From the IMG/VR virus record IMGVR_UViG_3300009093_000098, positions 1 through 31,252 of that record: a DNA stretch of 31,252 nt; one strand, given 5' to 3'. Source of the DNA: a virus. The notes below the pieces were generated by a model. The model searched no databases. It was not told the DNA's origin and saw only the letters and a program-made list of their open reading frames with translations. Made by a program: the position numbers and the translations under genes. The first letter of the stretch is position 1. The number at the start of each line of letters is the position of its first letter. This document shows, piece after piece, positions 8,980-31,192 of this stretch.

Positions 8980-9019
8980 AAAAAGCCTCCTAGGACTCAA
9001 CATCCAAGGAGGCTTTTTT
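8980..9019. terminator. Bidirectional rho-independent terminator between convergent gene blocks
   Basis: An inverted repeat AAAAAGCCTCCT / AGGAGGCTTTTT with a 15-base loop, flanked by A-tracts on one side and a nine-base T-tract on the other. On either strand it forms a GC-rich stem followed by a U-run. It lies between the end of the rightward late genes and the end of the leftward early/middle genes and would stop both. Confidence 0.93.
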
Positions 9020-9024
9020 TTTAC

Positions 9025-9474
9025 TTAAAGTTTAATCTGAGTAACACCAAATCCACTAGAGGGATCATGTTCATTAGCAACTTCTACCGCTCGCTCAGGA
9101 CTCTTCCCACTAGCCAGAGCACCCAAAGCAAACATAGAACCACTACCAATACTATAATAAGGTTTGTCAACGAAGACCCATCCACTTAGATTATATGAAG
9201 TATAAATCTCTTTATTAGAAGTTAATACAATTAACTCTGTATTTCTAGTTCTAGGTGGCTTATCAATAGGATTAGATAGCCAGTGGAATACAGCACCGAT
9301 AGAATCAGCAGATCCTGCATAACCTACGATAGCTTTCTTAGCTCCAAACAGAGCATCAGCTACTTCTTTTTCTAACACTAACATCTTATGGTTGCCTTTG
9401 AAGACTAGACCACCAGCATGGTTATACTGGTGATCTGAGGCCATAGACTTTAGGTTACAGGCGATTGTTGTTAT
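9025..9474 (-). CDS. HslV-like (proteasome beta-type) Ntn hydrolase, AUA start
   Basis: A 149-residue protein resembling HslV, the threonine peptidase of the HslUV protease. Read from an ATA codon at 9474 it begins (M)TTIACNLKSMASDHQ, matching HslV's MTTI start. After Met removal this gives Thr1, Asp13 and Lys29, each of the latter two offset by four from HslV Asp17 and Lys33, so the catalytic set is intact. Later motifs also fit: IVGYAGSADS, and YYSIGSGSMFALGALASG near the end. AAGGA lies six bases upstream of the ATA. The first ATG (9444) would remove the catalytic threonine. The start lies inside the upstream homing-endonuclease gene. No HslU-like unfoldase is visible, so it may use a host partner or act alone. 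Substrate unknown. Confidence 0.8.
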   Translation of the reverse strand: MTTIACNLKSMASDHQYNHAGGLVFKGNHKMLVLEKEVADALFGAKKAIVGYAGSADSIGAVFHWLSNPIDKPPRTRNTELIVLTSNKEIYTSYNLSGWVFVDKPYYSIGSGSMFALGALASGKSPERAVEVANEHDPSSGFGVTQIKL

Positions 9475-9784
9475 TTAATTTCCTTAATTCTTCTATTTTT
9501 AATTGTCTACGTAAACCCATATAAGGATAAATAGCTTCCATAATCTCAACACATTTTGGACCAAAAGCATCTACTCTATATCTAGGTTTATATTGTGGAT
9601 TTTTAACATCAATATATGGGCCTCTAAAGGTACTATTAGGAAAGATTTTTTGAAATTTCTCTAATACATCTTTATCACACATATCAATCAGGAAATAAGG
9701 ATGCCCTGAATGGATTGTGAAACATCCTTCTCCTTCTATTAAACCAGCAGCCCAAGCTATGTTAGACGCCGCAAGATCCACCAT
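9455..9784 (-). CDS. LAGLIDADG-type homing endonuclease (single motif)
   Basis: About 109 residues. The motif IAWAAGLIEGEGCFTI is the LAGLIDADG helix with its acidic residue and following strand. The rest (FPNSTFRGPYIDVKNPQYKP, MEAIYPYMGLRRQLKIEEL) fits small one-motif enzymes that act as homodimers and cut a specific DNA site to spread their own gene. The ATG at 9784 is preferred; a TTG at 9808 in the same frame is possible. It overlaps the 3' end of the ribonucleotide reductase by 23 bases and runs into the HslV-like gene, so it appears wedged between them as a free-standing mobile gene. Confidence 0.82.
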   Translation of the reverse strand: MVDLAASNIAWAAGLIEGEGCFTIHSGHPYFLIDMCDKDVLEKFQKIFPNSTFRGPYIDVKNPQYKPRYRVDAFGPKCVEIMEAIYPYMGLRRQLKIEELRKLNNNNRL

Positions 9785-11396
9785 GGCCAGTCCACTCACA
9801 AATATCAACTTCTGAATACTCTACTCCAGTTTTACCAACTGCTTCTGAGTATGGAACCTCAGTAATTGGCTGGCCGCCACGAGATCCATCTGGATAGGCT
9901 GTAAATCCTCTGAGTCTAGGAGCATATTTAGCTAATGTTTCTGCAAATTCAGAAACCTTAGATTCATTATTATTTTTAGAACCCCAAGAAGGAAGATTAA
10001 TAGTAGAAGAAATACTCATATCTACATAATCCTGGGTATCTGCTTGAAATTTAATTCTACGCTCGTAATCAGAACTTAAAGAGTATGCTGTTCTAATTTT
10101 TTCAGGATCAACTCCATATTCTTTAATGAGTCGATCTGCTGTTGCGTCAACAACGTATTGGTATTTCCACTTCGTTCCATCAGTGAGGTAACGACGCTTG
10201 TAAGCAACCGCGAACAAAGGTTCAATTCCTGTCGTGGTACTGGCAAGGATACCAATGGTCCCGGTAGGAGCAATTGCTCTATATGCGACTGGACGGCTGA
10301 TATAGAATCGATCACAGTGCTCATTAGCTGAACGTTCGGATTCGTTGGCGTATACATCAAGCCATTTCTTGAGTTCATTGTTTACCTCATAATCATAGCC
10401 TCTTTGCATTAACCACTCAGACACTCCCATAAGCCTGAGGCCAAGTCTTCGGTTTTTCTCTCGCACTCGATAAACCTTCTCATAAGGAAGATCAGCACGA
10501 AGAGTCCCACATACAAGAAACTTACTTGCTCGGTTGACAACCCCTGCGAAATCCTCAAGAAGCAATATTTCCAAGGTTAATGCTACCGAGGTTGCACACG
10601 TCAGAATCATCTTCGGAAGTGACTTCAGTACAGGCATTGCGAAGAGTTTCATTCTGTTTAGATCCAAAATTAAAGGAGAAACCAGGTTCTCCAGTTTCCA
10701 TAGCCTGCCTACAGTTTTCGAGGAAGACTTATTCTGATTGAGATCACCGGTTGTATTATCATAGTTGACAGAGATATTGGTCATATCCAAAGGAGCAGGA
10801 AAATTGAAATCCTGTTCCTTCAGTTGCTTTATGGTAGCTGACCAATTCTTCGCTCTAAGGAATTCAGTAATGTCCTCATGTTGCCAATTGAGTGATGCAT
10901 AGATCGCTGAGCGCCTGCTTCCACCTTGCATGACGTTTCTGCCAATTTCATTAATAGCATACATGAGCGGGATAGGGCCGCTTGCGATTCCTCCAGTTCG
11001 AGATAGAGGCTTGCCAGCAGGCCGTAGTCTGGAGTAATCAATGCCAATTCCACCACCTGTCATCAGGCATGACATTGCTCTCCAGGTTACTGCACTCCAT
11101 TCTTCTCTTGTGTCTTCTTCTGCACGCAGTAAGTAGCAGTTATTGTACGCTTTGTAGGGTCGTCCCGCATAGTATAAATAACGACCCCCAGGGATGAATC
11201 GCATTTGCTTAATGTCTTCGACAAGATCCTTCCGATCTCCATCTGACATAAACCAAGCTTCTCCAGGTCTTCGCGGTCCGCAAACATCAGCAACGAGTCG
11301 TTCAGCGAGAGCGTCCCAAGAATCGTTTGGTCCTTGGGCGTACTTGTGTCGAAAAATTCGTTCGGCAAAATCTGTTTTAAATCGTTGGACAATCAA
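9762..11396 (-). CDS. Class II (B12-dependent) ribonucleotide reductase, with two compensating frameshifts
   Basis: The 544-residue frame reduces ribonucleotides for phage DNA synthesis. Family marks: FIPGGRYL, CLMTGGGIGIDYSRLRPAG, NVMQGGSRRSA, APTGTIGILASTTTGIEP and a C-terminal cysteine pair (CEWTGHGGSCGV), like adenosylcobalamin-dependent enzymes. It starts with TTG at 11396 with AAGGGG five bases upstream; the codon before it is a stop. Residues about 222-279 do not fit the family. In the -1 frame the same DNA (about 10730-10560) encodes ENCRQAMETGEPGFSFNFGS, then LRNACTEVTSEDDSDVCNLG, the expected active-site region with the NxCxE motif. A base therefore appears lost near 10726-10733 and one gained near 10554-10563. 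As written the enzyme should be inactive; an assembly error is possible. Confidence 0.88.
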   Translation of the reverse strand: MIVQRFKTDFAERIFRHKYAQGPNDSWDALAERLVADVCGPRRPGEAWFMSDGDRKDLVEDIKQMRFIPGGRYLYYAGRPYKAYNNCYLLRAEEDTREEWSAVTWRAMSCLMTGGGIGIDYSRLRPAGKPLSRTGGIASGPIPLMYAINEIGRNVMQGGSRRSAIYASLNWQHEDITEFLRAKNWSATIKQLKEQDFNFPAPLDMTNISVNYDNTTGDLNQNKSSSKTVGRLWKLENLVSPLILDLNRMKLFAMPVLKSLPKMILTCATSVALTLEILLLEDFAGVVNRASKFLVCGTLRADLPYEKVYRVREKNRRLGLRLMGVSEWLMQRGYDYEVNNELKKWLDVYANESERSANEHCDRFYISRPVAYRAIAPTGTIGILASTTTGIEPLFAVAYKRRYLTDGTKWKYQYVVDATADRLIKEYGVDPEKIRTAYSLSSDYERRIKFQADTQDYVDMSISSTINLPSWGSKNNNESKVSEFAETLAKYAPRLRGFTAYPDGSRGGQPITEVPYSEAVGKTGVEYSEVDICEWTGHGGSCGV

Positions 11397-11576
11397 TTAG
11401 ACCCCTTGTTCAATCTCAGTAACAACCTTAGCAGCAGTGTCTTCAACTGCCTCAACATCATTCTCAACAACAGTCTTGATAGAATCCACGTCTGACTTAA
11501 CCGTATCCTCAATCGTCTTTTCTTTGCTCTGGAAATAACTCTTGATTTTGTTCCAGATATTCTTTAACCAATTCAT
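11397..11576 (-). CDS. Small charged helical protein, unknown function
   Basis: A 59-residue protein beginning MNWLKNIWNKIKSYFQSKEK, an amphipathic Trp/Lys-rich helix, followed by an acidic Val/Asp-rich helix (VKSDVDSIKTVVENDVEAVE). The ATG at 11576 is preferred over the ATG at 11627 because GAGGAG precedes it by about ten bases. Its stop abuts the TTG start of the ribonucleotide reductase. The N-terminus could associate with membranes. No family recognised. Confidence 0.6.
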   Translation of the reverse strand: MNWLKNIWNKIKSYFQSKEKTIEDTVKSDVDSIKTVVENDVEAVEDTAAKVVTEIEQGV

Positions 11577-11676
11577 CAGCTTCGATCTCCTCTTGTTTTC
11601 TAATTTTATACTTAACACTCTCACCATGATTCCGACTCAGGCCAGAATCATCGGTCTTGTTCTTCTTTGCTGTCAA
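11509..11676 (-). CDS. Small charged protein, unknown function
   Basis: About 55 residues, highly charged (SGLSRNHGESVKYKIRKQEE, then a Glu-rich helix). The protein-like character is clear but the start is not: TTG at 11676 with a weak AAAGAG seven bases upstream is the best guess, and the frame stays open to 11745. It overlaps both neighbours in other frames. Similar Ser-Arg-Asn-His-Gly openings occur in small phage proteins, but no function is known to me. Confidence 0.5.
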   Translation of the reverse strand: MTAKKNKTDDSGLSRNHGESVKYKIRKQEEIEADELVKEYLEQNQELFPEQRKDD

Positions 11677-11818
11677 AATCCAACTCTTTACACAAATACT
11701 CAAAATTCTCATCAATACGATCAAGGAAATTATCAACCAGATCATCTGATGTAATACCTAACAACTCCAATAGAGTAATCTCATCAAGATTACGGAGTTT
11801 CTCTAATAGCTCATGCAT
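11648..11818 (-). CDS. Small acidic protein, unknown function
   Basis: A 56-residue protein starting MHELLEKLRNLDEITLLELL and ending CKELDFDSKEEQDR. It is strongly acidic and predicted helical. The ATG overlaps the stop of the HD-hydrolase gene by one base (TAATG), so expression is coupled. The length, coupling and codon character support a real gene. No motif was recognised. Confidence 0.65.
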   Translation of the reverse strand: MHELLEKLRNLDEITLLELLGITSDDLVDNFLDRIDENFEYLCKELDFDSKEEQDR

Positions 11819-12360
11819 TAAATAAGTTCATTAAACCGATCAAGGAAGTATTGCTTTGCCTGTTCTGGAGAAAGGCATAGGGGAGCAATCCCATTCTTAA
11901 TTTCAGGTCTCTTTACATATTCCCACATACTCCAAGTATCTCCTCTAGTGGGGAGAAGATGATGGGCTTCTGTAGAAAGCTGAATTACATCAGCTTCTTT
12001 TACCGATTTAGGTAAAGGATAAACAAAATTAAATCGATTAGCAATAGACTGCATAATATTGTCCTCAATGGTGAGGTAGTTTCCCATATATTCTTTGATG
12101 GGCTTTGCAATATCCGAGATATATGCTTCGCTGCTGTCATGGAGTAGTGCTGCAAGTGCATCTTCCTTTGGAACGATATAAGAACAATGAACGCTATGCT
12201 CGGCCACAGAATAAAAGTGGCTTACGTGTCCAGAAAATCGGCAAGCCATGCCTAAAGCATGAGCAATATCATTAATGTCGATATCTTCTGGTTTGGTATC
12301 AAAATAATTGAAGTGCTTTCCAGAAGCAGTTTCAATCCAACATTCTTCAGTCTTTAGCAT
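11818..12360 (-). CDS. HD-domain phosphohydrolase (nucleotidase-like)
   Basis: A 180-residue HD-superfamily protein. WIETASGKHFNYFDTKP opens the domain. Metal ligands appear as SVAEHSV (His), ALLHDSSEAY (His-Asp pair), a later conserved EADVIQLSTEAHHL, and the C-terminal APLCLSPEQA. Phage members of this group are related to YfbR-type 5'-deoxynucleotidases and may tune nucleotide pools. The position upstream of the ribonucleotide reductase fits that. The ATG at 12360 has AGGA four bases upstream and is preferred to the ATG at 12381. It overlaps the DUF3310 gene by 14 bases. The substrate is inferred only. Confidence 0.8.
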   Translation of the reverse strand: MLKTEECWIETASGKHFNYFDTKPEDIDINDIAHALGMACRFSGHVSHFYSVAEHSVHCSYIVPKEDALAALLHDSSEAYISDIAKPIKEYMGNYLTIEDNIMQSIANRFNFVYPLPKSVKEADVIQLSTEAHHLLPTRGDTWSMWEYVKRPEIKNGIAPLCLSPEQAKQYFLDRFNELI

Positions 12361-12577
12361 TTCTTCCTTCTTCTTCGGCAATAGCCATATCTAGATAATG
12401 TCTAGCTTTCTTCAGATCTTCCAACATTTGTCCCTTGAATCGGCTTCTGGTAACGTATTTAATAATATTACCTTCATACCATCTAAGGTTATTCTTGGAA
12501 ATAAATTCACCAGGTTGGATAGCAAAGTGGGCGTAATGGTTACCACCCACTTGGATCTTGAACGGATCTTCAGTCAT
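12347..12577 (-). CDS. DUF3310 family protein
   Basis: A 76-residue protein matching the phage DUF3310 pattern: QVGGNHYAHFAIQPGEFI, then EGNIIKYVTRSRFKG and EDLKKARHYLDMAI. The length is normal for the family. Members are widespread in phages next to replication genes and are sometimes labelled nucleotide-kinase-like, but the biochemical role is not established. Its start is embedded in the end of a small HNH relic. Confidence 0.88.
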   Translation of the reverse strand: MTEDPFKIQVGGNHYAHFAIQPGEFISKNNLRWYEGNIIKYVTRSRFKGQMLEDLKKARHYLDMAIAEEEGRNAKD

Positions 12578-12671
12578 TTACTCTTTCTAAGTAATCAATA
12601 GCTTTTTGAATAAGTTCTGGATTGTCATTAAAACATCCAAGAGCTTTATTACAGTTTCCACATTGTTTCAT
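12570..12671 (-). pseudogene. Relic of an endonuclease VII-type HNH gene
   Basis: A 33-codon frame starting MKQCGNCNKALGCFNDNPEL and continuing IQKAIDYLERVND. It matches the C-terminal third of the complete HNH endonuclease at 15846-16211 (LCAHCNTALGRFNDDPVMLE, KAIKYLKEA). The N-terminal two-thirds, including the catalytic His region, are missing. It lies exactly between the phosphoesterase stop and the DUF3310 start, overlapping both, and looks like the leftover of a deleted mobile endonuclease. It could still be translated from its ATG. Confidence 0.75.
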
Positions 12672-13426
12672 TTATATCTGTTATTTAAATACTCTAATGA
12701 AACTGGCATTAAATCAAATGATCCATTATTTACGGCATGCAGCATCAGGATTCCTCTCCAATGCTTGTTTCCTTGGTATCCAAGATAATCTTCATCATGC
12801 TCATAACAACTACCAGCAATAATAGAGGTAAGGCGATCACCGTTAGCACGATGGCCAGTTGCAATCTGTAAACCTTGTTGATGACCAGCAACACAGGACA
12901 TGTGCTGCTTATTGAGTTGTGCTTGTGCCGAACTGGAAGGACGGCCAGCAACTCCTGTAACAAAGAAGTGACAGAAAGCAACCCCTTCGATAACCACTGG
13001 TTGAAGGAATGGATAGACTTCCCAATCATCTTCATATCCTAAGTCTCCAATTCCAATTGTTCCATCAAGTTTAGCGTCGTTATTGACTGCGCGTAAGATG
13101 CGTTCCTCATGGTTTCCCAAAGTGAGGACAAGCCTTGGATTGTACCGATATCGATGGCCTTCGATATCTCGTTTACGACGTTCTTTAATTGGAGCCAGAA
13201 GTGCTGCCATAGCATTCTTTGCTGCTTCCACGTCAGCACGATATCGTCTTCCTTCAAACGACTTTTTACCGACATCGTAAGAAGATAAGCTAGGCATATC
13301 CGCAAAATCACCAATGTTAACGATAACATCAGGTTCTTTCTCTTCTAAGTATCTACCAATATTAGTTAGGAATCTGGTATCGTCGCCGGGACGAACTTGA
13401 CAATCGGGAATTACTGCAATCTTCAA
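12668..13426 (-). CDS. Calcineurin-like metallophosphoesterase
   Basis: A 252-residue enzyme with the family's metal-binding motifs in order: a DxQ variant of the usual DxH near residue 8 (VIPDCQ), NIGDFADM near 38-45, LTLGNHEERI, and a late ATGHRANGD containing the GH pair. It hydrolyses phosphate esters; in phages such enzymes may act on nucleotides, nucleic acid ends or signalling molecules, and the substrate cannot be read here. It is embedded in the replication operon with an ATGA overlap to the upstream gene. Confidence 0.88.
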   Translation of the reverse strand: MKIAVIPDCQVRPGDDTRFLTNIGRYLEEKEPDVIVNIGDFADMPSLSSYDVGKKSFEGRRYRADVEAAKNAMAALLAPIKERRKRDIEGHRYRYNPRLVLTLGNHEERILRAVNNDAKLDGTIGIGDLGYEDDWEVYPFLQPVVIEGVAFCHFFVTGVAGRPSSSAQAQLNKQHMSCVAGHQQGLQIATGHRANGDRLTSIIAGSCYEHDEDYLGYQGNKHWRGILMLHAVNNGSFDLMPVSLEYLNNRYK

Positions 13427-13605
13427 TCGTTAAGCTCCTGTTGCATATCTTGTTCTGCAACTGCCTTATTATAAGCATTAAGCCCAACAGTAGCAGACAT
13501 ATTCACCGCAAACTGCAATAGATGTTGAATTTCTTTAGCGGAGAACTCAGTACGAACTTCAATTCCTCCATCATCCTTTTCAACCAGGATTTCAAGCACT
13601 TTCAT
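13423..13605 (-). CDS. Small protein, unknown function
   Basis: A 60-residue protein. It has a beta-like start (MKVLEILVEKDDGGIEVRTE) and a helix (FSAKEIQHLLQFAVNM). It overlaps the phosphoesterase start by four bases (ATGA) and the end of the nuclease gene upstream by 14 bases, so it is part of the same coupled series. No motif was recognised. Confidence 0.65.
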   Translation of the reverse strand: MKVLEILVEKDDGGIEVRTEFSAKEIQHLLQFAVNMSATVGLNAYNKAVAEQDMQQELND

Positions 13606-13945
13606 TATTATTCTTTTCCTTGATAAGCTCTAGAAAATGATCTAGAGAAATAGTTGCCAAGTAGATATCTCTATCTTTATGTACGATAACTACTGGTTCC
13701 CATTTACCATGCGTCTTGGCTTGTGCGTAGTAAGTATGAATCTGAGAGGTAGCTTTATTCTTTACTTCGATTTGATAGGGAATAAACTTTCTTGCGGCAG
13801 GGGAGAGTTGAATATCTTCTCCTGAAGCGCCCATCGATGTAGACTTAACATCGTCTGGTTCCAGTTTATTAAAAACTCCAAGCAGTTGATCTCTAACATG
13901 CTGTTGGGCTTTTCTTCCTTTTTGCTTTGCACTTTGTGGCTTCAG
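13592..13945 (-). CDS. PD-(D/E)XK nuclease-like protein, CUG start
   Basis: A 117-residue protein when read from CTG at 13945. The conserved core is STSMGASGEDIQLSPAARKF, then PYQIEVKNK, giving the Asp of GED and the ExK pair of a PD-(D/E)XK nuclease, followed by PVVIVHKDRD. The first ATG lies inside the STSMGAS motif and would delete the helical N-terminus (QQHVRDQLLGVFNKLEPDDV). No ATG, GTG or TTG exists further upstream in frame. GAGGAG lies eight bases before the CTG, and the CTG overlaps the upstream stop as CTGA, the same geometry as an ATGA overlap. It probably acts in recombination, DNA processing or host DNA breakdown. Confidence 0.75.
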   Translation of the reverse strand: MKPQSAKQKGRKAQQHVRDQLLGVFNKLEPDDVKSTSMGASGEDIQLSPAARKFIPYQIEVKNKATSQIHTYYAQAKTHGKWEPVVIVHKDRDIYLATISLDHFLELIKEKNNNESA

Positions 13946-14400
13946 AAAGGCTGCTCCTCAATCATAAACACAGCTTGCTGCTGCGGTTCTTCATATTTAG
14001 TTCCATTCATCACTGCATTAAACAGCATGATTCTGTCATCCTTATTAAGAAGATTAAGTTTCTTAGCTACAGAAGTAGCTGCTTCGAAATACTTATAGAA
14101 GAGAGGATCACTGGTCATAATAATATTAAACTCCCCCTTTCGGAAAGATTTAAATTCAGACTCACGTCCTACAACATGAGAGCCCCCTAGTTCCCACCAC
14201 TGGTTCATATCATCAATATGAGCACCATCATCTCTATTACCAATTTCAAACCAACCCATAAAATGTTCCTCATCTTCAGGATTAATTAGAACTAACCAAT
14301 CTTCATCAGTGTCTGTAGGAGCAGGATTACAAATCTCTCTGCTACCAGTTCTACACATCTTTTGAATTCTAGGATAGGCTTGGATTTCAGCTAAGGACAT
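13942..14400 (-). CDS. Nucleotidyltransferase-like protein (Pol-beta superfamily)
   Basis: A 152-residue protein from ATG at 14400. The GS motif (CRTGSREICNPAP, residues 17-28) is followed by acidic TDTDEDWLVLI (about 29-39), the layout of Pol-beta-type nucleotidyltransferases. A later GEFNIIMTSD gives the third acidic position, and ATSVAKKLNLLNKDDRI is typical of the phage subgroup. The target is unknown. It overlaps the exonuclease gene by 14 bases and the nuclease gene by four. Frames further upstream exist but the ATG at 14400 has GGAAAG just before it. Confidence 0.72.
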   Translation of the reverse strand: MSLAEIQAYPRIQKMCRTGSREICNPAPTDTDEDWLVLINPEDEEHFMGWFEIGNRDDGAHIDDMNQWWELGGSHVVGRESEFKSFRKGEFNIIMTSDPLFYKYFEAATSVAKKLNLLNKDDRIMLFNAVMNGTKYEEPQQQAVFMIEEQPF

Positions 14401-15064
14401 GATCTTTCCAATAGTCGTTTTCTTTGCGCCAAATAAACACGCACTTGGCATTCATTTCCATCTCTTCTTCAGACCCATATAAATTCAGGATTGCTTCAAC
14501 TTGTTCTTGTCTGGTCTTGCCAGATAAAAGCTTCGCTGCCTTGACCGGCCCGATCCCATCGATCCCTGGGATCCCGTCGGTACGATCGCCCATAAGCAAC
14601 TGAGTAAGGAACCAAGTAATACCCATTTCCTCATCAACATAATATTTTTCTTTCTTAACAAAGTTATAGTGCCAGCCTGCTAACTGATTAAGATCCTTAT
14701 CATGATGAATAAGAATGGTTTTGTCTTTAGGCGATCCATATTGTGCGATACCACATGCATCGTCTGCTTCCATGCCGTTGACAATTTGTGCATCCCACTG
14801 ATCCTTTAAATGATTCTTTAATGCCTGTTCCCATTTGGGGCGAGGCTTATCTTTACGAAAGGCTTTATACTCAGGAAAGACTTGGCATCGGAAGTTATCC
14901 TTACCAGTAAGGAAAAGAATATATTCCTTGGCTTCTGTTTCATTAAGAGCAGTATTAATCATATAATCCACTCTTGCCGCTGCCTGGAACAAATCTTCGC
15001 CCTTACTATCGGCCGTTGCTGCGGCCCTGAATACAAAGCTATCTGCGTCTAGAATTGCGTTTAT
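14387..15064 (-). CDS. 5'-3' exonuclease (FEN/PIN-like), probable AUA start
   Basis: About 225 residues. ILDADSFVFRAA is the N-terminal metal site. ADDACGIAQYG, ILIHHDKDLNQLAGWHYN and MGDRTDGIPGIDGIGPVKAA (acidic loop plus helix-hairpin-helix) are the classic flap endonuclease/T7 gp6-type motifs. It removes RNA primers and processes or degrades DNA 5' ends. The family usually begins a few residues before the DADS motif. ATA at 15064 gives (M)NAILDADS with GGAG six bases upstream. GTG at 15076 and TTG at 15097 are in-frame alternatives without a good ribosome binding site. It follows the SSB-like gene and precedes the nucleotidyltransferase. Confidence 0.85.
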   Translation of the reverse strand: MNAILDADSFVFRAAATADSKGEDLFQAAARVDYMINTALNETEAKEYILFLTGKDNFRCQVFPEYKAFRKDKPRPKWEQALKNHLKDQWDAQIVNGMEADDACGIAQYGSPKDKTILIHHDKDLNQLAGWHYNFVKKEKYYVDEEMGITWFLTQLLMGDRTDGIPGIDGIGPVKAAKLLSGKTRQEQVEAILNLYGSEEEMEMNAKCVFIWRKENDYWKDHVLS

Positions 15065-15359
15065 CGTAGTCTCCACGATGATTAGAAATAATCTCAATGC
15101 GAAGCTCTACTTCGTCATTCGGATAGAAATATCTTTCAGTTTCGATTCTACAGTGATGCCTATAGGCCCAAATATGAGCAGCATAGAACACCTTTAACAT
15201 ATCAGCATGTGGCATTCGATGCGTGACTACAAAGTCACCAACCTTTTTCAGATAAGAACTGAAATTATATTTATTACCTGGCTTGGTTCCCTTACCACCA
15301 GGACAGTTACTTACTCGAACCCAATCATTCCTGGGTCTATTATTAGGCTTGTACCCCAT
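15039..15359 (-). CDS. Basic protein of unknown function in the replication block
   Basis: A 106-residue protein. The N-terminus is basic and glycine-rich (MGYKPNNRPRNDWVRVSNCP), the middle is aromatic with several histidines (VFYAAHIWAYRHHCRIETER), and the C-terminal tail is RNSRRR. It ends in TAG, overlapping the exonuclease start. The basic tail and position between SSB-like and exonuclease genes suggest nucleic-acid contact, but no family was recognised. Confidence 0.7.
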   Translation of the reverse strand: MGYKPNNRPRNDWVRVSNCPGGKGTKPGNKYNFSSYLKKVGDFVVTHRMPHADMLKVFYAAHIWAYRHHCRIETERYFYPNDEVELRIEIISNHRGDYDKRNSRRR

Positions 15360-15361
15360 GA

Positions 15362-15859
15362 TTAAAGATCATTAGATTCCTTAAAGATATCCTTACCATC
15401 ATCAAGCACCCACTCAACCATTTGATCTGCACGAGCTAAAATCTTAGGAATATCTTCCGGGCCAGTAGGAGATCCATAGGATGCAACTGCTTGGGCAAGA
15501 CAGCTCTGCTTGATAATATAGACTTGCTTCTTGGCACGTTCTTCAGGAGTCTCATAGGTAGAATTTCTGGCAGGAGTATTACTAGCCATCTTCTGATCGA
15601 CAACCGGAGAGCTTCCAGTAACAGCCTTAACACTAGCCCAATTGTAGAACTTATCACCTTCTACATAGGCAACCTCAACCGAATCACCAGCATTAAGCTT
15701 CTTAATCGCGTCATAGACAGCGGGATTAGAGAAACTCATAACAGTCTTGGTCTTGGTTTCATCACGATCAGTCTTATAGACAACCGTCATCTTCTGATAG
15801 CTACCCTTAGCGGTAGGGACTTTCTCTTCCGAATAGGAGAGGAATTTAAGAATGGGCAT
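15362..15859 (-). CDS. Single-stranded DNA-binding protein-like (OB-fold)
   Basis: A 165-residue protein. Residues 1-80 are beta-rich with alternating short strands (YQKMTVVYKTDRD, GDSVEVAYVEGDKFYNWASV) consistent with an OB fold. A linker leads to a helical C-terminal part with YETPEERAKKQVYIIKQSCL, a pattern I associate with phage OB-fold DNA-binding proteins, and an acidic end typical of SSBs. It would coat single strands at the fork. The location between polymerase and exonuclease supports this. It overlaps the preceding HNH gene by 14 bases. Confidence 0.72.
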   Translation of the reverse strand: MPILKFLSYSEEKVPTAKGSYQKMTVVYKTDRDETKTKTVMSFSNPAVYDAIKKLNAGDSVEVAYVEGDKFYNWASVKAVTGSSPVVDQKMASNTPARNSTYETPEERAKKQVYIIKQSCLAQAVASYGSPTGPEDIPKILARADQMVEWVLDDGKDIFKESNDL

Positions 15860-16211
15860 TAGCCTCCTTTAAATATTTTATTGCTTTTTCTAACATAACT
15901 GGATCATCATTAAATCTACCTAAAGCTGTATTACAATGAGCACAAAGTAGACCTCTAATTTTACCAGTTTTATGGCAGTGATCTACTGCTAATGCTCTAC
16001 CAGTTATACATACTTTAGAACATATAGCACATACTTCATTTTGATTCTTTAGCATTTTATTATAATCTTCTAAAGAGATTCCATACATGCGTTTATAGTG
16101 ATTATCAGCAACATATTTATATTGCTTAGATTTTCTAAGTTTTATTCTTTCCAAATTAGCAAGATAGTATTTTCTTTGATAATCTGGATCTTTATATTTT
16201 GGTGTTCCTAT
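15846..16211 (-). CDS. HNH endonuclease, endonuclease VII family, AUA start
   Basis: About 121 residues. VCAICSKV, ALAVDHCHKTGKIRGLLCAHCN and ALGRFNDDP form the endonuclease VII/HNH zinc-and-histidine core. The N-terminal basic repeat (YKDPDYQRKYYLANLERIKL) is normal for free-standing phage HNH proteins. No ATG, GTG or TTG lies before that repeat. ATA at 16211 overlaps the polymerase stop as TAATA, mirroring the TAATG overlaps elsewhere, with AAGG seven bases upstream. A TTG at 16154 is a weaker internal choice. Probably a mobile gene inserted after the polymerase. Confidence 0.82.
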   Translation of the reverse strand: MGTPKYKDPDYQRKYYLANLERIKLRKSKQYKYVADNHYKRMYGISLEDYNKMLKNQNEVCAICSKVCITGRALAVDHCHKTGKIRGLLCAHCNTALGRFNDDPVMLEKAIKYLKEANAHS

Positions 16212-16933
16212 TATATTACCTTATATTCTTGTAGTTCTGCCTTACTTCTTCCAACTGAAATTTCACAAGTCATTGGAAGACTAAAAGAATGATTCCAATT
16301 AGTATAACATAATTGAGGGCATTTGTCAACTGCTTCTGTAATCATTTTTGCTACAGCGTTAACATTTTCTTTTGGAGTATCAACGACTAATGAGTCGTGA
16401 ACAGTCATCACAAGTAACGCTGTAAGTCCTGACTCCTTAATGAGTCTTGCCAACTCAATTCTTGCGAGCATGACAAGGTCAGCTCCATAGCCTTGGACTG
16501 GATAGTTCTTAATAGTTGTAAGCGGCCACTCCAATCCTCTCCATGATTCTTTTGGACTGAAGAAAAATACTCGTCCAGAAGGGATTTCAAGGTAGCCACG
16601 CTCACGTACAATTTGGAGTAGTTGATTATGCCACTCTCCAAGCCCTTTATATTTTTCGTAATACTGGTCAATTACTTTCTGCCATTGCTTTTGAGAATAT
16701 CCGACACTAGCAAAATCGGGGTCGTTAGCATAAGAATAGGCACTGCCACCATAAATAAGACGAAACTTAAAGATTTTGGAGATAAGTCTGCTAGGTAATC
16801 CGAAAGCCTTTTGATTGTTTCCATGAATATCTTCCTTATCTATGATTTCTTTACATAATATCTGATCTTTAGATAGCTCTGCTGCACAGACTACCTCTAG
16901 CTAAAGGCCCTTGACGTCACCATTAACCAACAA
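16211..16933 (-). pseudogene. Family A DNA polymerase, C-terminal part (polB-half of split gene), in-frame amber
   Basis: This encodes the palm and fingers: motif A remnant NGDVKGL, a TAG at 16903-16901 where glutamate is expected, then LEVVCAAELSKD. Motif B follows (GLPSRLISKIFKFRLIYGG), then motif C (MTVHDSLVVDTP). TTG codons at 16933/16930 have AGGAGG six bases upstream of the first, so the fragment has its own initiation site overlapping the HNH gene. The amber is codon 11. No start codon lies between it and a TTG at 16534, past motif B. Either the codon is read through or corrected, the sequence is wrong, or the half is dead. It would pair with the half at 17733-18914 to form one polymerase. 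Confidence 0.8.
16301..16329 (-). promoter_or_regulatory. Sigma-70-type promoter inside the polymerase C-terminal part
   Basis: On the minus strand TTGACA (16329-16324), a 17-base spacer and TATACT (16306-16301), with TG one base before the -10 (extended -10). The first ten bases, TTGACAAATG, are identical to the promoter-like site at 20686-20657. It would drive the HNH, SSB-like and exonuclease genes downstream. The match lies in coding sequence, so chance is not excluded. Confidence 0.55.
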
Positions 16934-17384
16934 GAGCCACCTCCTTTCCTAGAAACTTCAACATACCTTTACAGAAAAGTTCTAGTTCTTCTTCTGAAGC
17001 ATCCCATTTCATTCGGTTTGCTAAGGTACTGATGATTTGGATATTATCTTTCGTATATCCAAGAGAAGGAATTTTTCTATCAATAGAAGCAGTAAATCTC
17101 TTACCAAGACCAGGCTCTTCTATTTTCACTCCAAGAATAGGACAGTATTCTGGAATTACAATATCTTCTAATGTAAGAGAGAATGGAACTTCTTTTACAG
17201 TCGCTCTATGTTTAGCGGCCTTCCACAAAAGATAAATAATCTTTTTAGGACGATTTTTGTTCTTGTGATAGGAATCTCTTCGATACTTTCTTTCCTTTTC
17301 TGGATCGTTCAGGTACCTTTCTCTGTTCCGTCTCTTCTGTTCTTCTTTGTTGTTCTCGTACCATGAGCCCATGTGTTCTTTCAT
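16923..17384 (-). CDS. HNH-type homing endonuclease inserted in the DNA polymerase gene
   Basis: A 153-residue protein. The N-terminus is a basic, Arg/Lys-rich DNA-binding stretch (RRNRERYLNDPEKERKYRRD). The core has EYCPILGVKIE, FTASIDRKIPSLGYTKDNIQII and a following helix (STLANRMK), the pattern of phage HNH proteins with a CPxLG start and a D-R catalytic area. It cuts DNA to copy itself into uninterrupted alleles. It lies exactly between the two polymerase halves at motif A, with duplicated motif sequence on both sides. Its last codons carry the AGGAGG that serves the downstream polymerase fragment. Confidence 0.82.
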   Translation of the reverse strand: MKEHMGSWYENNKEEQKRRNRERYLNDPEKERKYRRDSYHKNKNRPKKIIYLLWKAAKHRATVKEVPFSLTLEDIVIPEYCPILGVKIEEPGLGKRFTASIDRKIPSLGYTKDNIQIISTLANRMKWDASEEELELFCKGMLKFLGKEVALVG

Positions 17385-17419
17385 CTAAGAAACTATTATT
17401 ATCCGCCCCACCAAATCCA

Positions 17420-17449
17420 CTATTCATTTACATCACCATTGACAAGAAT
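17420..17449 (-). pseudogene. Stranded copy of polymerase motif A sequence
   Basis: Ten codons reading ILVNGDVNE-stop, directly after the stop of the 96-residue ORF and in its frame. The codons for VNGDV match those at the start of the downstream polymerase fragment except at third positions, so this is a diverged coding duplicate rather than random sequence. It has no start of its own and looks like the old end of the upstream polymerase half. Confidence 0.6.
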
Positions 17450-17740
17450 TTAATACTCCCTTACATCCATCCAATGGTCTTCCTCTTCATCAGGATTATC
17501 TACAATCCACTCACAGGTTTGTTCAAGATCCTCGAATCCCCACCCAAATTGATGGGTCTGTAGTTTAATTTGATGCATTAAATCTCCACTAGGAAAAGCA
17601 CCATAAGTAGTTCTTGAGAATCCCATATTAGTGGTTACTTGTGATTCATTAAATTTAGGGACATTATTTTCCCAAGTAGCTTTACTACCCTTAAGAATAA
17701 AATACCCTAACTTTCTCCACTCATCCCATGTTTTAGTCAT
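17450..17740 (-). CDS. Unknown 96-residue protein inserted between the polymerase halves
   Basis: A 96-residue protein with TWDEWRKLGYFILKGSKATW near the start and NVPKFNESQVTTN after it. The KGSKA plus VPxFxExQV pattern recurs in other phage proteins, but I know no function. The C-terminus is acidic and Trp-rich. Its ATG overlaps the stop of the upstream polymerase half (ATGACTAA). It has only a weak ribosome binding site, so it may depend on coupling. Its position cuts the polymerase after SRYD. Confidence 0.68.
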   Translation of the reverse strand: MTKTWDEWRKLGYFILKGSKATWENNVPKFNESQVTTNMGFSRTTYGAFPSGDLMHQIKLQTHQFGWGFEDLEQTCEWIVDNPDEEEDHWMDVREY

Positions 17741-18914
17741 ATCTACTCACTAGTAAACAATCAATTTCCTCAGCACTATTCTGCATATTTGGTTTTGAAG
17801 AACTTAATCTCCCTGTCCTTGCCACGTTTTGGTTGTATTGGCCGTGTAGGTAACTTCCCCATTTGTATCGTTCAAGATGCTTATAGATAATTGAATCGAA
17901 AGTCTCGACGATTTTGGAATACTTCGCTTTATCAGCCAGAGCAGAGAGGAGTTGTTTTCCTTCTTTAGTCCTTGCTCGAAGTTGGCGAAGAGTTGGGTCA
18001 TCAACTTGATAATATCTTGTAGTTGCATTTGGATCATCCTTGGTTTTCTTTACCTCGCTCTTTGGGAGAGGATCAAATCGTCTAGGGAATTCAACAGTAA
18101 CAGTATGCCAGTGATTGCGGACATAAGGTAAACCTTTCTTGTCACCGGACTTGTAAATAGCTTCCTCAGACGTATAGTAATCATAATTTAAACTACCACC
18201 ATACAGTAGACACGATAACTGATCTCCAGAATCCCAATTAAAGCTAACGAAATCAGGGAAATCATCAGGAAGATATTGGTTGAGAAGTTTTTCGGTTTGA
18301 AGAAGAAGTTCTTTATACCGCTCATGATCGACCTTGGCTTTTTCGAGATCAAATTTAACTCCGTTGAGTTCTGTTCTAGCCAGAACGAGGAGATCCATTC
18401 CCTGTTGATAAAGAAGTTGTAATTGTTTCTCAGAAAGCAAACCGAGTTGAATCTCTCTGACCACGAGGGGTTTTTCTGCATCGTCATTGTTATATTCCTC
18501 TAGAATCTTGATTGGAATATTCTCAGTGGAGATACCTTGTTCCCAATATCCCTTAACAACATCCAACTTGACTGGCACACCATAATGCTCTAGGACTTCA
18601 TTGAAGCTGGACATTCCACTAGTTTGTCCAGTAATAATGTGCTCTGCTAATTGAACATCATAGATCTTGATATGGTCTGGAATATCAATACCATTTCGCA
18701 TTAACCATTGGATATCGAACTTAAGATTGAAGCCAACCAACTCAGTACAGCGAGAAAGAGAACTTCTAACAACATCCAGAAAGTCAGGATCTTTGTAATA
18801 ATGAAAGCCTGTTCGCCTACCATTACTAAAAGAATAGCTGACAAGAAAGTTATCAGGATGATGGACATGGCCCTTCTCTATAATAGAGGTTTCACAATCA
18901 TACCCTAGGATCAG
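17733..18914 (-). CDS. Family A DNA polymerase, N-terminal part (exonuclease plus thumb), CUG start
   Basis: A 393-residue half of the replicative polymerase. The 3'-5' exonuclease motifs are complete: ILGYDCET (Exo I), LVGFNLKFDIQ (Exo II) and EYNNDDAEK (Exo III). The thumb/palm entry ARTGRLSSSKPNMQN is followed by LLVSRYD and a stop, just before motif A. The only start that keeps Exo I is CTG at 18914, with GGAGG six bases upstream. It overlaps the upstream stop as CTGA. The ATT/ATG-type starts further in would delete catalytic Asp6 and Glu8. It needs the downstream half (16211-16933) for polymerisation; alone it could only proofread or bind DNA. Confidence 0.88.
   Translation of the reverse strand: MILGYDCETSIIEKGHVHHPDNFLVSYSFSNGRRTGFHYYKDPDFLDVVRSSLSRCTELVGFNLKFDIQWLMRNGIDIPDHIKIYDVQLAEHIITGQTSGMSSFNEVLEHYGVPVKLDVVKGYWEQGISTENIPIKILEEYNNDDAEKPLVVREIQLGLLSEKQLQLLYQQGMDLLVLARTELNGVKFDLEKAKVDHERYKELLLQTEKLLNQYLPDDFPDFVSFNWDSGDQLSCLLYGGSLNYDYYTSEEAIYKSGDKKGLPYVRNHWHTVTVEFPRRFDPLPKSEVKKTKDDPNATTRYYQVDDPTLRQLRARTKEGKQLLSALADKAKYSKIVETFDSIIYKHLERYKWGSYLHGQYNQNVARTGRLSSSKPNMQNSAEEIDCLLVSRYD
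18324..18334 (-). repeat. AGGTCGATCAT motif copy 2
   Basis: Exact copy on the coding strand of the polymerase N-terminal part, read as Lys-Val-Asp-His. Confidence 0.7.
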
Positions 18915-19111
18915 TCTGAACCTCCATAACTACCTTTAACGGCTCTGACTTCCATCTCATCAAAATCTTGTTCCAGATTACGCAAATACATTTCTGTAGT
19001 CCGAACAAAATTCTTAACAATATTAAGTTGAGTGTTTACCCAATCAATATGCATAGGCTGTCCTTTAGCAGCTTCTGCTAGCTCATTCAGAGCCTGTTCC
19101 CATCTTTTCAT
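18911..19111 (-). CDS. Small helical protein, unknown function
   Basis: A 66-residue protein, almost entirely helical and probably coiled coil (WEQALNELAEAAKGQP, VKNFVRTTEMYLRNLEQDFD). It ends GSYGGSD, the codons of which supply the GGAGG ribosome binding site for the polymerase. It lies between the 47-residue membrane protein and the polymerase. No family recognised. Confidence 0.68.
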   Translation of the reverse strand: MKRWEQALNELAEAAKGQPMHIDWVNTQLNIVKNFVRTTEMYLRNLEQDFDEMEVRAVKGSYGGSD

Positions 19112-19113
19112 GA

Positions 19114-19257
19114 TTAATATGTTTCAACAGTTTTAGCAGAGGGACTAACAATAACTGCTACTGCAAATACAAAACAACTCCAACGATCCCATCCAGTATT
19201 CCTCAAATCATTATAAAGTTCTTTAAACTTGAATGGACGAACACGAGTATTATGCAT
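19114..19257 (-). CDS. Small membrane protein, unknown function
   Basis: A 47-residue protein starting MHNTRVRPFKFKELYNDLRN, with a single hydrophobic stretch (CFVFAVAVIVSP) near residues 31-42 and a short polar end. The basic N-terminus suggests a cytoplasmic N-terminal side. The start overlaps the helicase stop by eight bases, and it is followed directly by the next ATG. Coupled translation supports a real gene. Confidence 0.6.
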   Translation of the reverse strand: MHNTRVRPFKFKELYNDLRNTGWDRWSCFVFAVAVIVSPSAKTVETY

Positions 19258-20521
19258 ATTTAATGATATCCTTATAGCGAGCAATCTCTGGCTCGATTAA
19301 AATTTCAAAGCGACCATGCTTCAGCTTAGGATCGCTATCTTGGTCACCAAAGAGTTTGTTCTTACAAATATTAAGGTAACGAACATACTCAGAACCCATA
19401 TCATGAATCTTACCGATACCCAAGATCCAGTCGCCTTCAGCTTGCTTGGAAGTCTTGGCATTAGCTACATTATCCATGTTCAGATATTTTTGTCCTTCTG
19501 CGGATCCATCAGCTTGGCACACTCCGATAACGCTGTGCTCATTTTTCGCAAGTTCTCTGGCCCATTGGTAGATAGAGCCCAATCTAAGATCCTCACGATC
19601 TGCCGCAAATCCTTTGATCTTGTCAATCTGGTCATATATGACGAGTCTAGGCTTGTCTCTCTGTACAATTCGCTCAATCTCTCGATGATTGATTGTTGCC
19701 GAATCGTAGAATCTAAAACGTCCTTGAGTGACTCTTTCAAATTCCTCCTTGTACTTTCGTACATTGGCGATTAGTTGTTCGAGCCGGCAGCCAAAGAAGG
19801 CTTGATAAACACGCAGGGCAACCTTCTGACCTTGTTCTTCGTTATTGAACCAGTCGATGTTTCCATCCGTTTGAGACAGGAAATTAGAAACCTCCGATGC
19901 AAGGAAAGTTGTTTTTCCAGTCTCTGGACGCGCGAAAATAAATCCGAAGTCGCCGGCTCTAAGCGATCCAAGGCTCTTGTTAAGACAATTAAGTCTCCAA
20001 CGAAGTCCTGGTCTTTGGTAAACATCCTGTAGTAGTAACTCTAAATCAGTGTTGAGAGGTTGTAACCCTTCCTCAAGGGAGGTACTCTTTCCATGCAGGA
20101 TATCCAAATACTTTTCTGCTTCTTCAAATTTAGCAGAACCAGTTGATACTCTGTAGGAAATTTCCGAGAGCTTTAATGCGGCTTGCCGCTGCTCAATATC
20201 CTTCAGGATAGTTAATCCTGCTTCAGCAGACAGAGATACTTTTCGTATTCTAACGAACAAGTCATCGTAGATACTGTGATCTGCTGTAGGATATAATACC
20301 CAAAAATAGGCAAGTAAATCCGGAAGAGTAATATCTCCCTGAGATTTATTATGTAATTCTTCTAAAGCTTTATAAATATGAAATAATTCTCTATTATTCT
20401 CTTTAATAGTATTAATATTAATGAGACTAATATAATTATAATAATTATCCTTACTTAAGAGTAAGGATAATAAACTAATCTCTGGAATATATAAAGAATT
20501 ACTATTATCTTTATTATCTAT
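19250..20521 (-). CDS. DnaB-like replicative helicase, AUA or AUU start
   Basis: About 423 residues, the normal size for DnaB-type helicases. The helical N-domain (IPEISLLSLLLS, ELFHIYKALEELHNKSQGD) precedes the RecA-like motor. Walker A is FARPETGKTTF near residue 197, with Ala for the usual first Gly. Walker B is RLVIYDQIDK near 297, and GVCQADGSAEGQ is the later DNA-loop region. The N-domain lies in frame upstream of TTG 20260, yet there is no ATG, GTG or TTG for 87 codons before it. AAAGGA at 20535-20530 lies eight bases before ATA 20521 (or five before ATT 20524). It unwinds DNA at the fork with the primase encoded just upstream. Confidence 0.85.
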   Translation of the reverse strand: MDNKDNSNSLYIPEISLLSLLLSKDNYYNYISLININTIKENNRELFHIYKALEELHNKSQGDITLPDLLAYFWVLYPTADHSIYDDLFVRIRKVSLSAEAGLTILKDIEQRQAALKLSEISYRVSTGSAKFEEAEKYLDILHGKSTSLEEGLQPLNTDLELLLQDVYQRPGLRWRLNCLNKSLGSLRAGDFGFIFARPETGKTTFLASEVSNFLSQTDGNIDWFNNEEQGQKVALRVYQAFFGCRLEQLIANVRKYKEEFERVTQGRFRFYDSATINHREIERIVQRDKPRLVIYDQIDKIKGFAADREDLRLGSIYQWARELAKNEHSVIGVCQADGSAEGQKYLNMDNVANAKTSKQAEGDWILGIGKIHDMGSEYVRYLNICKNKLFGDQDSDPKLKHGRFEILIEPEIARYKDIIKYA

Positions 20522-20535
20522 AATATTATTCCTTT

Positions 20536-20580
20536 ATTATATATATATATATATATATATATTCTTATATATATAATTAT
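20536..20580. repeat. AT-only low-complexity stretch with a TA dinucleotide run
   Basis: About 45 bases almost wholly A and T, including an uninterrupted alternating TA run of roughly 25 bases (20538-20562), immediately upstream of the helicase ribosome binding site. Such DNA melts easily. It could be an origin unwinding element, a translational leader, or simple slippage; no iterated protein-binding site was seen beside it. Confidence 0.6.
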
Positions 20581-20586
20581 AATGTA

Positions 20587-20679
20587 TTACGCATACGCGT
20601 GAGGAGGTCTCCAATCATCATCATCATCAGATGATATCCATAAAACAATACATAAAATTATAACACCAAGTAACCACAT
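20587..20679 (-). CDS. Tiny membrane protein, unknown function
   Basis: A 30-residue frame: MWLLGVIILCIVLWISS, a full membrane span, then five aspartates and WRPPHAYA. An AGGG lies nine bases upstream of the ATG. It overlaps a strong promoter-like sequence, so either the gene or the promoter (or both) may be real. Poly-Asp is encoded by a GAT run. Confidence 0.4.
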   Translation of the reverse strand: MWLLGVIILCIVLWISSDDDDDWRPPHAYA

Positions 20680-20686
20680 TTGTCAA
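20657..20686 (-). promoter_or_regulatory. Sigma-70-type promoter upstream of the helicase
   Basis: TTGACA (20686-20681), an 18-base spacer and TATAAT (20662-20657), both perfect consensus, with TG before the -10. Transcription would start near 20650 and read through the AT-rich leader into the helicase. It shares TTGACAAATG and GTTATA with the site at 16329-16301. It is the clearest promoter candidate in the window. Confidence 0.68.
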
Positions 20687-20705
20687 TACCCTGCCTGAAA
20701 AAAAG

Positions 20706-21029
20706 TTAAATATTCTGTGGAGGAGGTTGATCCTCAAAGGATCTGCGATGTTCTGGCTCCCCGGCAGTACCGCTAGGAGGCTCAGGAAGGGCCTTTTTCG
20801 GGCCTAAATCGGGTTCGGTAAGGTGTCCCCCCTGGCAGACCATTACAGCCCCGGATTTGCCGTTATAAACGACCATCGGTTCTTCGTCATGTTTGGCACA
20901 TTCGTTCACCACAGCATTGATTCCAGCTGAGATTCCATCTTCGTATGCAGTGTTTCCGAGCCAGTAGCCACCCCCAAGGATGGCTCCGATACTAATTAAT
21001 ACTGCTGAGATACTGATTAATTTCCGCAT
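20706..21029 (-). CDS. Membrane-anchored protein, unknown function
   Basis: A 107-residue protein with a basic start and one hydrophobic helix (ISISAVLISIGAILGGGYWLG, about 4-25), then a polar domain with two cysteines (NECAKHDEE, VMVCQGGH) and a Pro/Glu-rich tail. It is probably anchored in the inner membrane. The ATG has AAAGGAG seven bases upstream, and the gene overlaps the primase end by 38 bases. It resembles the layout of a spanin only loosely and lies far from the lysis gene, so that role is not claimed. Confidence 0.65.
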   Translation of the reverse strand: MRKLISISAVLISIGAILGGGYWLGNTAYEDGISAGINAVVNECAKHDEEPMVVYNGKSGAVMVCQGGHLTEPDLGPKKALPEPPSGTAGEPEHRRSFEDQPPPQNI

Positions 21030-21747
21030 TATTATACTCCTTTGGATCCCTGTCGCTAATAATATAATTAACTGGTAATCCGGTTAAAATAGATAAGTTA
21101 TTAGATTTCTGAGGCATAGTATCTCCTTGATCTTTATCCAGCCATAATATAATCGGCTTATTATTATCTCGGAGATACTTAATATGCATTGGGTATATTC
21201 TAGTACCGAATAAACATATTGTCTGAGTTACTTGTCCTGCCTTATGCGCGCTAAGGAGATCCTCCACCAATATGCAAGAGTCACCCCCATTTCCAACCAC
21301 TTCCACGGTTCCATGACTATCTCCCCAGACATGCCACTTTCTTGGTGATACAGAAGTCGAAAGTGTTCCGGCATCGCCGGACAATTCCCCCATTCGTCGT
21401 CCACATGAGAATTGCAAGGGAATCCCAACCCTGAAAACCAACCGTTGATACTTCTCTGACCAGCCAACAATTGGTTTCCAGTAGTCGTAGGGGAGACCGT
21501 ATTGTAGTAACCATTCCCAACATCTTGCTGGAACGTCCCACGTAAAGTCATCTGGAAGTATCCTCTTTACTTTCGACTCTTTGTCATGATCGACCTTCTT
21601 CTCCCATCGATTACTCAGTGGTGGATGAACGTGATAACCGCAGCTCCAACAATGGCCACCGCCATCACGATACATACCAAGGTTGTCACCACGGGAGTCT
21701 TTACCACGTGCTCTACATTCTGGACAGGGCTCATAATGACTAAACAT
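20992..21747 (-). CDS. DNA primase (zinc-binding plus TOPRIM)
   Basis: A 251-residue T7 gp4-type primase without a fused helicase. The zinc site uses Cys8, Cys11, Cys33 and Cys36 (PCPECRA, HCWSCGY). The TOPRIM domain has SCILVEDLLSAHKAG with Glu162 and ILWLDKDQGD with Asp204/Asp206, the metal-binding residues. It lays RNA primers for the polymerase and would work with the separate DnaB-like helicase. It ends in TAG, showing that UAG is used as a normal stop here. It starts at an ATG overlapping the upstream stop by one base. Confidence 0.9.
   Translation of the reverse strand: MFSHYEPCPECRARGKDSRGDNLGMYRDGGGHCWSCGYHVHPPLSNRWEKKVDHDKESKVKRILPDDFTWDVPARCWEWLLQYGLPYDYWKPIVGWSEKYQRLVFRVGIPLQFSCGRRMGELSGDAGTLSTSVSPRKWHVWGDSHGTVEVVGNGGDSCILVEDLLSAHKAGQVTQTICLFGTRIYPMHIKYLRDNNKPIILWLDKDQGDTMPQKSNNLSILTGLPVNYIISDRDPKEYNNAEINQYLSSIN
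21586..21596 (-). repeat. AGGTCGATCAT motif copy 3
   Basis: Exact copy on the coding strand of the primase gene, read as Lys-Val-Asp-His. Confidence 0.7.
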
Positions 21748-22001
21748 TATTCCTTGAGTTCAAACACCATAATGGTATTACGGGGATCACGGCCATGCCC
21801 TGGTCTTTTATTCACAGCAACAGGACCTTTGAACAGCACATTAATTTTATTATTCTTTTTAAGAATATTTAATTGAAGATTGTTGTGAAGGCCTGCAATT
21901 ACTATATAAGTATGTTCTTTCTTTAACTCTTTAGAAGGAACATACTCTTGTTTTACATGGTCATAACTAACAGCATCACCCATTCTCAGATTAACTAACA
22001 T
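21747..22001 (-). CDS. Small beta-rich protein, unknown function
   Basis: An 84-residue protein from ATG 22001, with AAGGAGG seven bases upstream and a one-base TAATG overlap. The sequence alternates beta strands (THTYIVIAGLHNN-type, INVLFKGPVAVN) with basic residues, perhaps a small nucleic-acid-binding fold. A TTG two codons earlier is possible. Not recognised. Confidence 0.65.
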   Translation of the reverse strand: MLVNLRMGDAVSYDHVKQEYVPSKELKKEHTYIVIAGLHNNLQLNILKKNNKINVLFKGPVAVNKRPGHGRDPRNTIMVFELKE

Positions 22002-22305: not shown

Positions 22306-22500
22306 TTAAAACTTCAGTTCTCGAATGAAATCATCAACATCATCTTCAACATTCTTGGGGAGTAGATCTTTACGCCCCTTGACAGGAATACCAGTATCTT
22401 CCAGGCACTTGGTGCAGGTATCTAGATACCTCTCAGTCTTGGCATGCTTAAGTGTACTTTCGTAATCACTTAATGCCCTATCACAACAACTACACCGCAT
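22306..22500 (-). CDS. Small zinc-ribbon-like protein
   Basis: A 64-residue protein from ATG 22500. Two CxxC-type pairs, MRCSCCDRALSDYE and YLDTCTKCLED, about 25 residues apart, form a likely zinc ribbon, and the remainder is basic then acidic. Comparable small phage proteins are common and of unknown role. The ATG overlaps the upstream stop (TAATG). The frame is open further upstream, but those residues are shadows of the previous gene. Confidence 0.75.
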   Translation of the reverse strand: MRCSCCDRALSDYESTLKHAKTERYLDTCTKCLEDTGIPVKGRKDLLPKNVEDDVDDFIRELKF

Positions 22501-24954: not shown

Positions 24955-24970
24955 TAATTAATTTCCTTAA

Positions 24971-31116: not shown

Positions 31117-31192
31117 TGGTAGGCCGTGCTTGAATCGAACAAGCGACTAATCGATTATGAGTCGACTACTCTTACCACTGAGTTAACGGCCC
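31117..31192 (-). tRNA. tRNA with anticodon CAU, probably tRNA-Ile2 (reads AUA)
   Basis: A 76-base cloverleaf with encoded CCA: acceptor GGGCCGT/ACGGCCT (first pair G-U), D stem ACTC/GAGT, anticodon stem GTCGA/TCGAT with loop CTCATAA, T stem GCTTG/CAAGC with loop TTCGATT. The anticodon CAU (31159-31157) could be Met or Ile. The anticodon arm and variable region (GACTCATAATCG, TAGTCGC) closely resemble E. coli ileX-type tRNA-Ile2, whose C34 becomes lysidine and decodes AUA. It lacks initiator traits such as a C1-A72 mismatch and the GGG/CCC anticodon stem. Confidence 0.9.

Follow-up and report, generated by a model that had tools for sequence, protein, structure and literature searches.

The IMG/VR virus record IMGVR_UViG_3300009093_000098, whose 31,252 bases are analysed here as a whole and called the window, comes from a phage in which six replication genes appear to start at AUA, AUU or CUG instead of AUG, GUG or UUG. 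The six starts all lie within the replication module, which occupies the minus strand from about 9,000 to 21,750, and each is found 5-9 bases after a Shine-Dalgarno (SD) sequence; the positions proposed for them in the initial annotation were all correct. By homology, the genes encode an HslV family peptidase, a RusA-like/PD-(D/E)XK nuclease, a 5'-3' exonuclease, an endonuclease VII-like HNH protein, the N-part of a family A DNA polymerase that is in two parts, and a DnaB-like helicase. We read these near-cognate codons, with a probability of about 0.62, as weak starts that would be disfavoured by initiation factor 3 (IF3), in the layout known from infC, and deployed across the replication module of a family of related phages.

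Homologue alignments make it nearly certain that the starts of the HslV-like peptidase, the nuclease and the polymerase are real. The HslV-like gene (9025-9474, minus strand) starts at ATA 9474-9472, with the SD TAAGGA at 9481-9486 and a spacer of 6 nucleotides (nt). An in-frame TAA stands immediately 5' of this ATA, and the next canonical codon is residue 11. Proteasome-type peptidases use an N-terminal threonine as their nucleophile, and residues 2-3 of the HslV-like protein, which hold the catalytic Thr1, are Thr-Thr in 17 of 17 aligned proteins. The identity of the protein is settled by fold search, since the top PDB fold matches are HslV (AlphaFold predicted local distance difference test, pLDDT, 94); a PDB sequence search gave spurious tag-like matches only. 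The codon at the start is ATA in seven phages of the lineage, CTG in two and ACG in one, the remainder having GTG, TTG or ATG, and the annotated GTG start of HslV in phAPEC8 and in Aeromonas phage 4L372XY coincides with the window's ATA position. ATG and its one-base neighbours make up 17% of codons generally. They occupy position 1 in all 20 non-redundant HslV homologues (0/20 two codons on) and in all 54 of the nuclease (1/54 two codons on). The nuclease gene (13592-13945, minus strand; phrog_244) starts at CTG 13945-13943, 8 nt after the SD GAGGAG at 13954-13959, and 37 residues precede its next canonical codon. Both the HslV ATA and the nuclease CTG recur in contig L033, which comes from another sample and matches the window at 99.86% identity across 5.6 kb.

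The stretches between the near-cognate starts and the first ATG, GTG or TTG are, as judged from their substitution patterns, under purifying selection: the ratio of nonsynonymous to synonymous differences (pN/pS) is 0.08-0.37 for HslV, 0.12-0.44 for the polymerase (codons 2-58) and 0.26-0.56 for the nuclease. The HslV alignment is too divergent to serve for a further scan. ATA itself persists in five relatives of HslV, with identities as low as 56% and synonymous sites near saturation. As AUG is a single transition away, this retention favours selection over drift.

The polymerase N-part (17733-18914, minus strand), a 3'-5' exonuclease domain, starts at CTG 18914-18912, 5 nt after the SD GGAGGT at 18920-18925. 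The next canonical codon is 58 residues on, and its use would remove the DxE exonuclease motif (GYDCETS). At the position of the window's CTG, relatives have TTG (L001, 81%; L003, 66%) or ATG (L002, 77%). The 5'-3' exonuclease gene (14387-15064, minus strand; phrog_107, 5_3_exonuc) starts at ATA 15064-15062, 6 nt after the SD GGAG at 15071-15074. The same codon is ATG in the 96% relative L034, as well as in L006 and L120, and it is ATA in L010; 12 nt 5' of the window's ATA there is an in-frame GTG, without an SD. Homologues of HslV, the nuclease, the exonuclease and the polymerase that start at the downstream ATG or TTG codons were sought and not found.

The two remaining starts are the weakest-supported of the six. 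In the HNH gene (15846-16211, minus strand; Endonuclease_7), the putative start is ATA 16211-16209, with the SD TAAGG at 16219-16223 and a 7 nt spacer, and upstream of the conserved region there is no canonical codon. One relative, on contig 3300003320_000073, has a near-cognate start (AGGAG then ATT); a pattern search among viral contigs gave no close relative. The window has three HNH-type endonuclease genes (9455-9783, 15846-16211 and 16923-17384, all on the minus strand), which sit between replication genes and overlap or abut their neighbours. The helicase gene (19250-20524, minus strand) has about 87 residues without a canonical codon after the SD AAAGG at 20531-20535. Its start may be either ATA 20521-20519, 9 nt from the SD, or ATT 20524-20522, 6 nt from it, the exact codon being weakly fixed. 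A (TA)19 repeat (20538-20575) lies in the gene's leader directly upstream of the ribosome-binding site, and similar AT-only leaders are present in several relatives.

Three of the starts overlap the stop of the upstream gene, as had been described: the nuclease and the polymerase as CTGA, and the HNH gene as TAATA on the stop of the polymerase C-part. Reinitiation at such overlaps was considered as a general cause and rejected, because the HslV, exonuclease and helicase starts do not overlap an upstream stop, so that no more than three of the six would be accounted for.

The suggestion that the clustering in replication genes reflects a shared rule holds well beyond the window. Among 26 contigs including the window, genes with homologues were scanned on both strands. 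On the helicase strand, 43 of 487 genes need a near-cognate start with an SD; on the opposite strand, which carries the structural genes, none of 207 does (Fisher p=3e-7), transcription direction serving here as a proxy for module. The 43 codons are ATA (19), ATT (11), CTG (7), ATC (5) and ACG (1), and the genes are chiefly those of the helicase, HslV, the nuclease, the exonuclease and a metallophosphoesterase. This census relies on two limits, homologues below 65% identity and the SD requirement. A first version without homology limits was discarded as uninformative because shadow frames and conserved DNA yielded equally many matches in control contigs. The output of an automatic start caller was noisy and was not relied on. 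In those control phage contigs that also have the exonuclease or the nuclease, near-cognate starts are rare, with clear cases in the nuclease of L185, L046 and L065 (ATC/ATT) and in L066. When sites without a canonical start are counted by anchoring on the SD, ATT and ATA lead in the lineage; in the controls AGA, CGA and CCT lead. In a wider sample comprising 82 related helicases, AUA, AUU, AUC or CUG with an SD is the only candidate start in 24, a canonical codon is present in 53, and 5 are unresolved. A tree of 86 helicases requires at least 19 changes of start state (near-cognate versus GTG, TTG or ATG), with four unresolved rows scored as near-cognate.

GenBank annotations of related phages are affected. 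The helicase of MW202697 (L191 1811-3031) is annotated from 1949, 46 codons into a frame whose conservation reaches near its beginning at 1811, and the phosphoesterase of MW202796 (L192, about 21009) probably has a shortened N-terminus. Their likely starts are AUA and AUC, respectively. MW202697, a clear case, is a metagenome assembly; among the records examined, no isolate has one. The hosts of related isolates are Alcaligenes and Methylophilales. A scan of genome contigs for the host of the window phage returned only phage-like contigs in mixed bins of metagenome-assembled genomes (MAGs), among them L225 and L226, related phage contigs inside MAG bins labelled Thaumarchaeota and Nitrosotalea, which are probably binning errors.

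The strength of the SD follows the start codon. Among genes whose start position is fixed, the predicted SD energy is -7.5 kcal/mol for near-cognate starts (n=22), -5.9 for GTG or TTG (n=17) and -4.1 for ATG (n=35), the near-cognate sites having the stronger SDs (p=9e-6 vs ATG, 7e-4 vs GTG/TTG). This comparison replaces a census-based one, which was dropped because its near-cognate sites had been picked by their SD. The gradation suggests that near-cognate codons act as weak starts needing help. In SD strength the late genes equal or exceed the early ATG genes (mean -5.5 vs -4.0), yet none of the 207 has a near-cognate start.

A model can be proposed in which replication genes starting one base off AUG (AUA, AUU, AUC, CUG or ACG), namely those of the helicase, polymerase N-part, exonuclease, nuclease and HslV, and in some relatives the metallophosphoesterase, would be decoded as formyl-Met by the usual initiator tRNA. 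Pairing a strong SD with an IF3-disfavoured codon may keep the replication proteins low and make their synthesis respond to how IF3 and 30S subunits are balanced, the structural genes keeping AUG. The initial annotation had offered two explanations, low-level expression of replication proteins and a phage that alters initiation. The first, extended to low-level or gated expression, seems the most economical reading of the comparisons, and the starts and their shared rule stand; the second runs against the stronger SDs at near-cognate sites and against the search for initiation-factor genes given below. More tentatively, the whole module might work as an infC-like switch, several of its genes sharing strong SDs and IF3-sensitive start codons, so that the infected cell's IF3 level relative to its free 30S subunits would turn genome replication on or off. 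Several points weigh against weak starts as a regulatory device. The case is comparative, and the role of IF3 is drawn from sequence and by analogy. A weak SD alone would suffice were low output the sole aim. Near-cognate control would not be essential, given that these genes start with ATG in many relatives. Finally, the strand census equates direction of transcription with module.

These points are best considered together with a rival that we think unlikely, though far from negligible: with a strong SD and a low need for protein, the start may simply decay to a near-cognate codon and back, without regulatory meaning. The frequent switching of helicase starts favours such drift, or else a changing need. 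The strong SDs at near-cognate sites would provide the buffering, and in the nuclease and the polymerase the exchange of CTG and TTG is synonymous in the overlapping upstream gene. Drift sits less easily with the five HslV relatives that keep ATA at near-saturated synonymous divergence, or with the late genes, which have no near-cognate starts despite strong SDs, although a higher demand for their products could explain this. That the starts are misassigned, the proteins beginning at downstream ATG or TTG codons or the codons being sequence errors, is very improbable. The in-frame GTG upstream of the exonuclease ATA might be cited in its favour, as might the indels that separate the window's ribonucleotide reductase from that of a near-identical contig. 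Against this, the independent contig L033 shares both the HslV ATA and the nuclease CTG, canonical starts would remove the catalytic threonine and exonuclease motif I, selection acts 5' of the canonical codons, and the pattern is repeated in dozens of contigs.

Two further explanations place the cause in the translation machinery. If the host or the phage loosened start-codon choice, through an altered IF3 or an extra initiator tRNA, near-cognate codons would work like AUG; the use of several different ones in a single genome speaks for this. The explanation is improbable in view of the 0/207 count on the structural strand and of the SD compensation, which implies that these codons seem to remain weak in the host. 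Genes for IF3, IF1 or bS21 (PF00707, PF01165, PF01176) were not found in 13 records, which are possibly partial genomes. The phage tRNA-CAU genes point the same way. That of the window (31117-31192, minus strand) has a CUCAUAA loop and a G1-U72 pair and lacks the three initiator G-C pairs (GGG/CCC), and a similar one in a relative (L207 16500-16576) has the same loop and also lacks these pairs. By comparison with E. coli tRNA-Ile2, we take both to be of the tRNA-Ile2 type. The relatives G001 and G002 carry tRNA-Ile(UAU), so AUA-reading tRNAs are present in several relatives. The other explanation, that AUA is recoded as methionine in the window phage, would fit the rank of AUA as the commonest near-cognate start (19/43). 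It is refuted by homologue alignments, in which internal AUA pairs with Ile (38%), Val (22%) or Leu (12%) and with Met in only 4%; the genetic code is therefore the standard one. CTG, ATT, ATC and ACG also serve as starts, and ATA makes up only 8% of isoleucine codons.

To our knowledge, bacterial starts other than AUG, GUG and UUG come from a handful of single genes (infC, sigR, ccpN and cvfC1). As in infC, sigR and ccpN, the starts described here are non-canonical codons fixed by homology and conserved in relatives, and they follow strong SDs at proper spacing. IF3 represses non-canonical starts (PMC5472188, PMC2268962), and in S. aureus AUA or AUU with an extended SD yields about 10-30% of the output of AUG (PMC13009471). 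The infC gene, which starts at AUU, AUC or AUA and autoregulates IF3, shares with the phage genes a non-canonical start conserved in homologues, a strong SD and a codon of the class that IF3 discriminates against (PMC5472188; PMC13009471). It differs in being a single host gene that feeds back on the factor it encodes, whereas here there are several phage replication genes, none encoding an initiation factor. The AUA of ccpN in S. aureus and B. subtilis and the AUU of S. aureus cvfC1 are likewise conserved and have extended SDs, with about 10% of AUG output (PMC13009471). These are single bacterial genes studied by ribosome profiling and reporters, whereas the phage case is module-wide and comparative. 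In Streptomyces sigR, a GTC start repressed by IF3 restrains translation (PMC5472188); GTC is absent from the phage set, and the IF3 effect tested in sigR is inferred here.

The pattern thus recurs module-wide, in several replication genes of tens of phages, as opposed to the single genes known in bacteria. No report of a phage module using non-canonical starts was found in the open-access literature, which is not proof of absence. Gene finders restricted to ATG, GTG and TTG truncate these proteins. Homologues with AUA, CUG, GTG, TTG and ATG at one position form a ready comparison set for weak-start selection and IF3 gating. A search of a phage collection found no near relative of the window. 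Methylophilales phages MEP401/402 (Zobellviridae in NCBI) and Alcaligenes phage QDWS535 share its order of split polymerase, DnaB-like helicase, exonuclease and phosphoesterase; they differ in having about 33-46% identity and a helicase that starts at ATG.

Some neighbouring genes of the window are irregular. The ribonucleotide reductase gene (9762-11396, minus strand) is, relative to L033, short of 1 base near 10730 and 2 bases near 10558, with about 57 codons out of frame between the two indels before the frame is restored. At five more positions the window has A for a G of L033. Within the polymerase C-part, the segment 16901-16933 (minus strand) has an in-frame TAG (16903-16901) in motif A, reading GDVKGL*LEVV where relatives have GDVKGLEVV. 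This stop adjoins an apparent 6-base insertion, and the HNH gene at 16923-17384 lies directly upstream; a broken gene, readthrough and a homing footprint are candidate explanations. At 22500-28805 on the minus strand, a cluster contains amidoligases, glutamine amidotransferases, a COOH-NH2 ligase and a RimK-like ATP-grasp protein; Alcaligenes phage QDWS535 has an annotated cluster of similar make-up.

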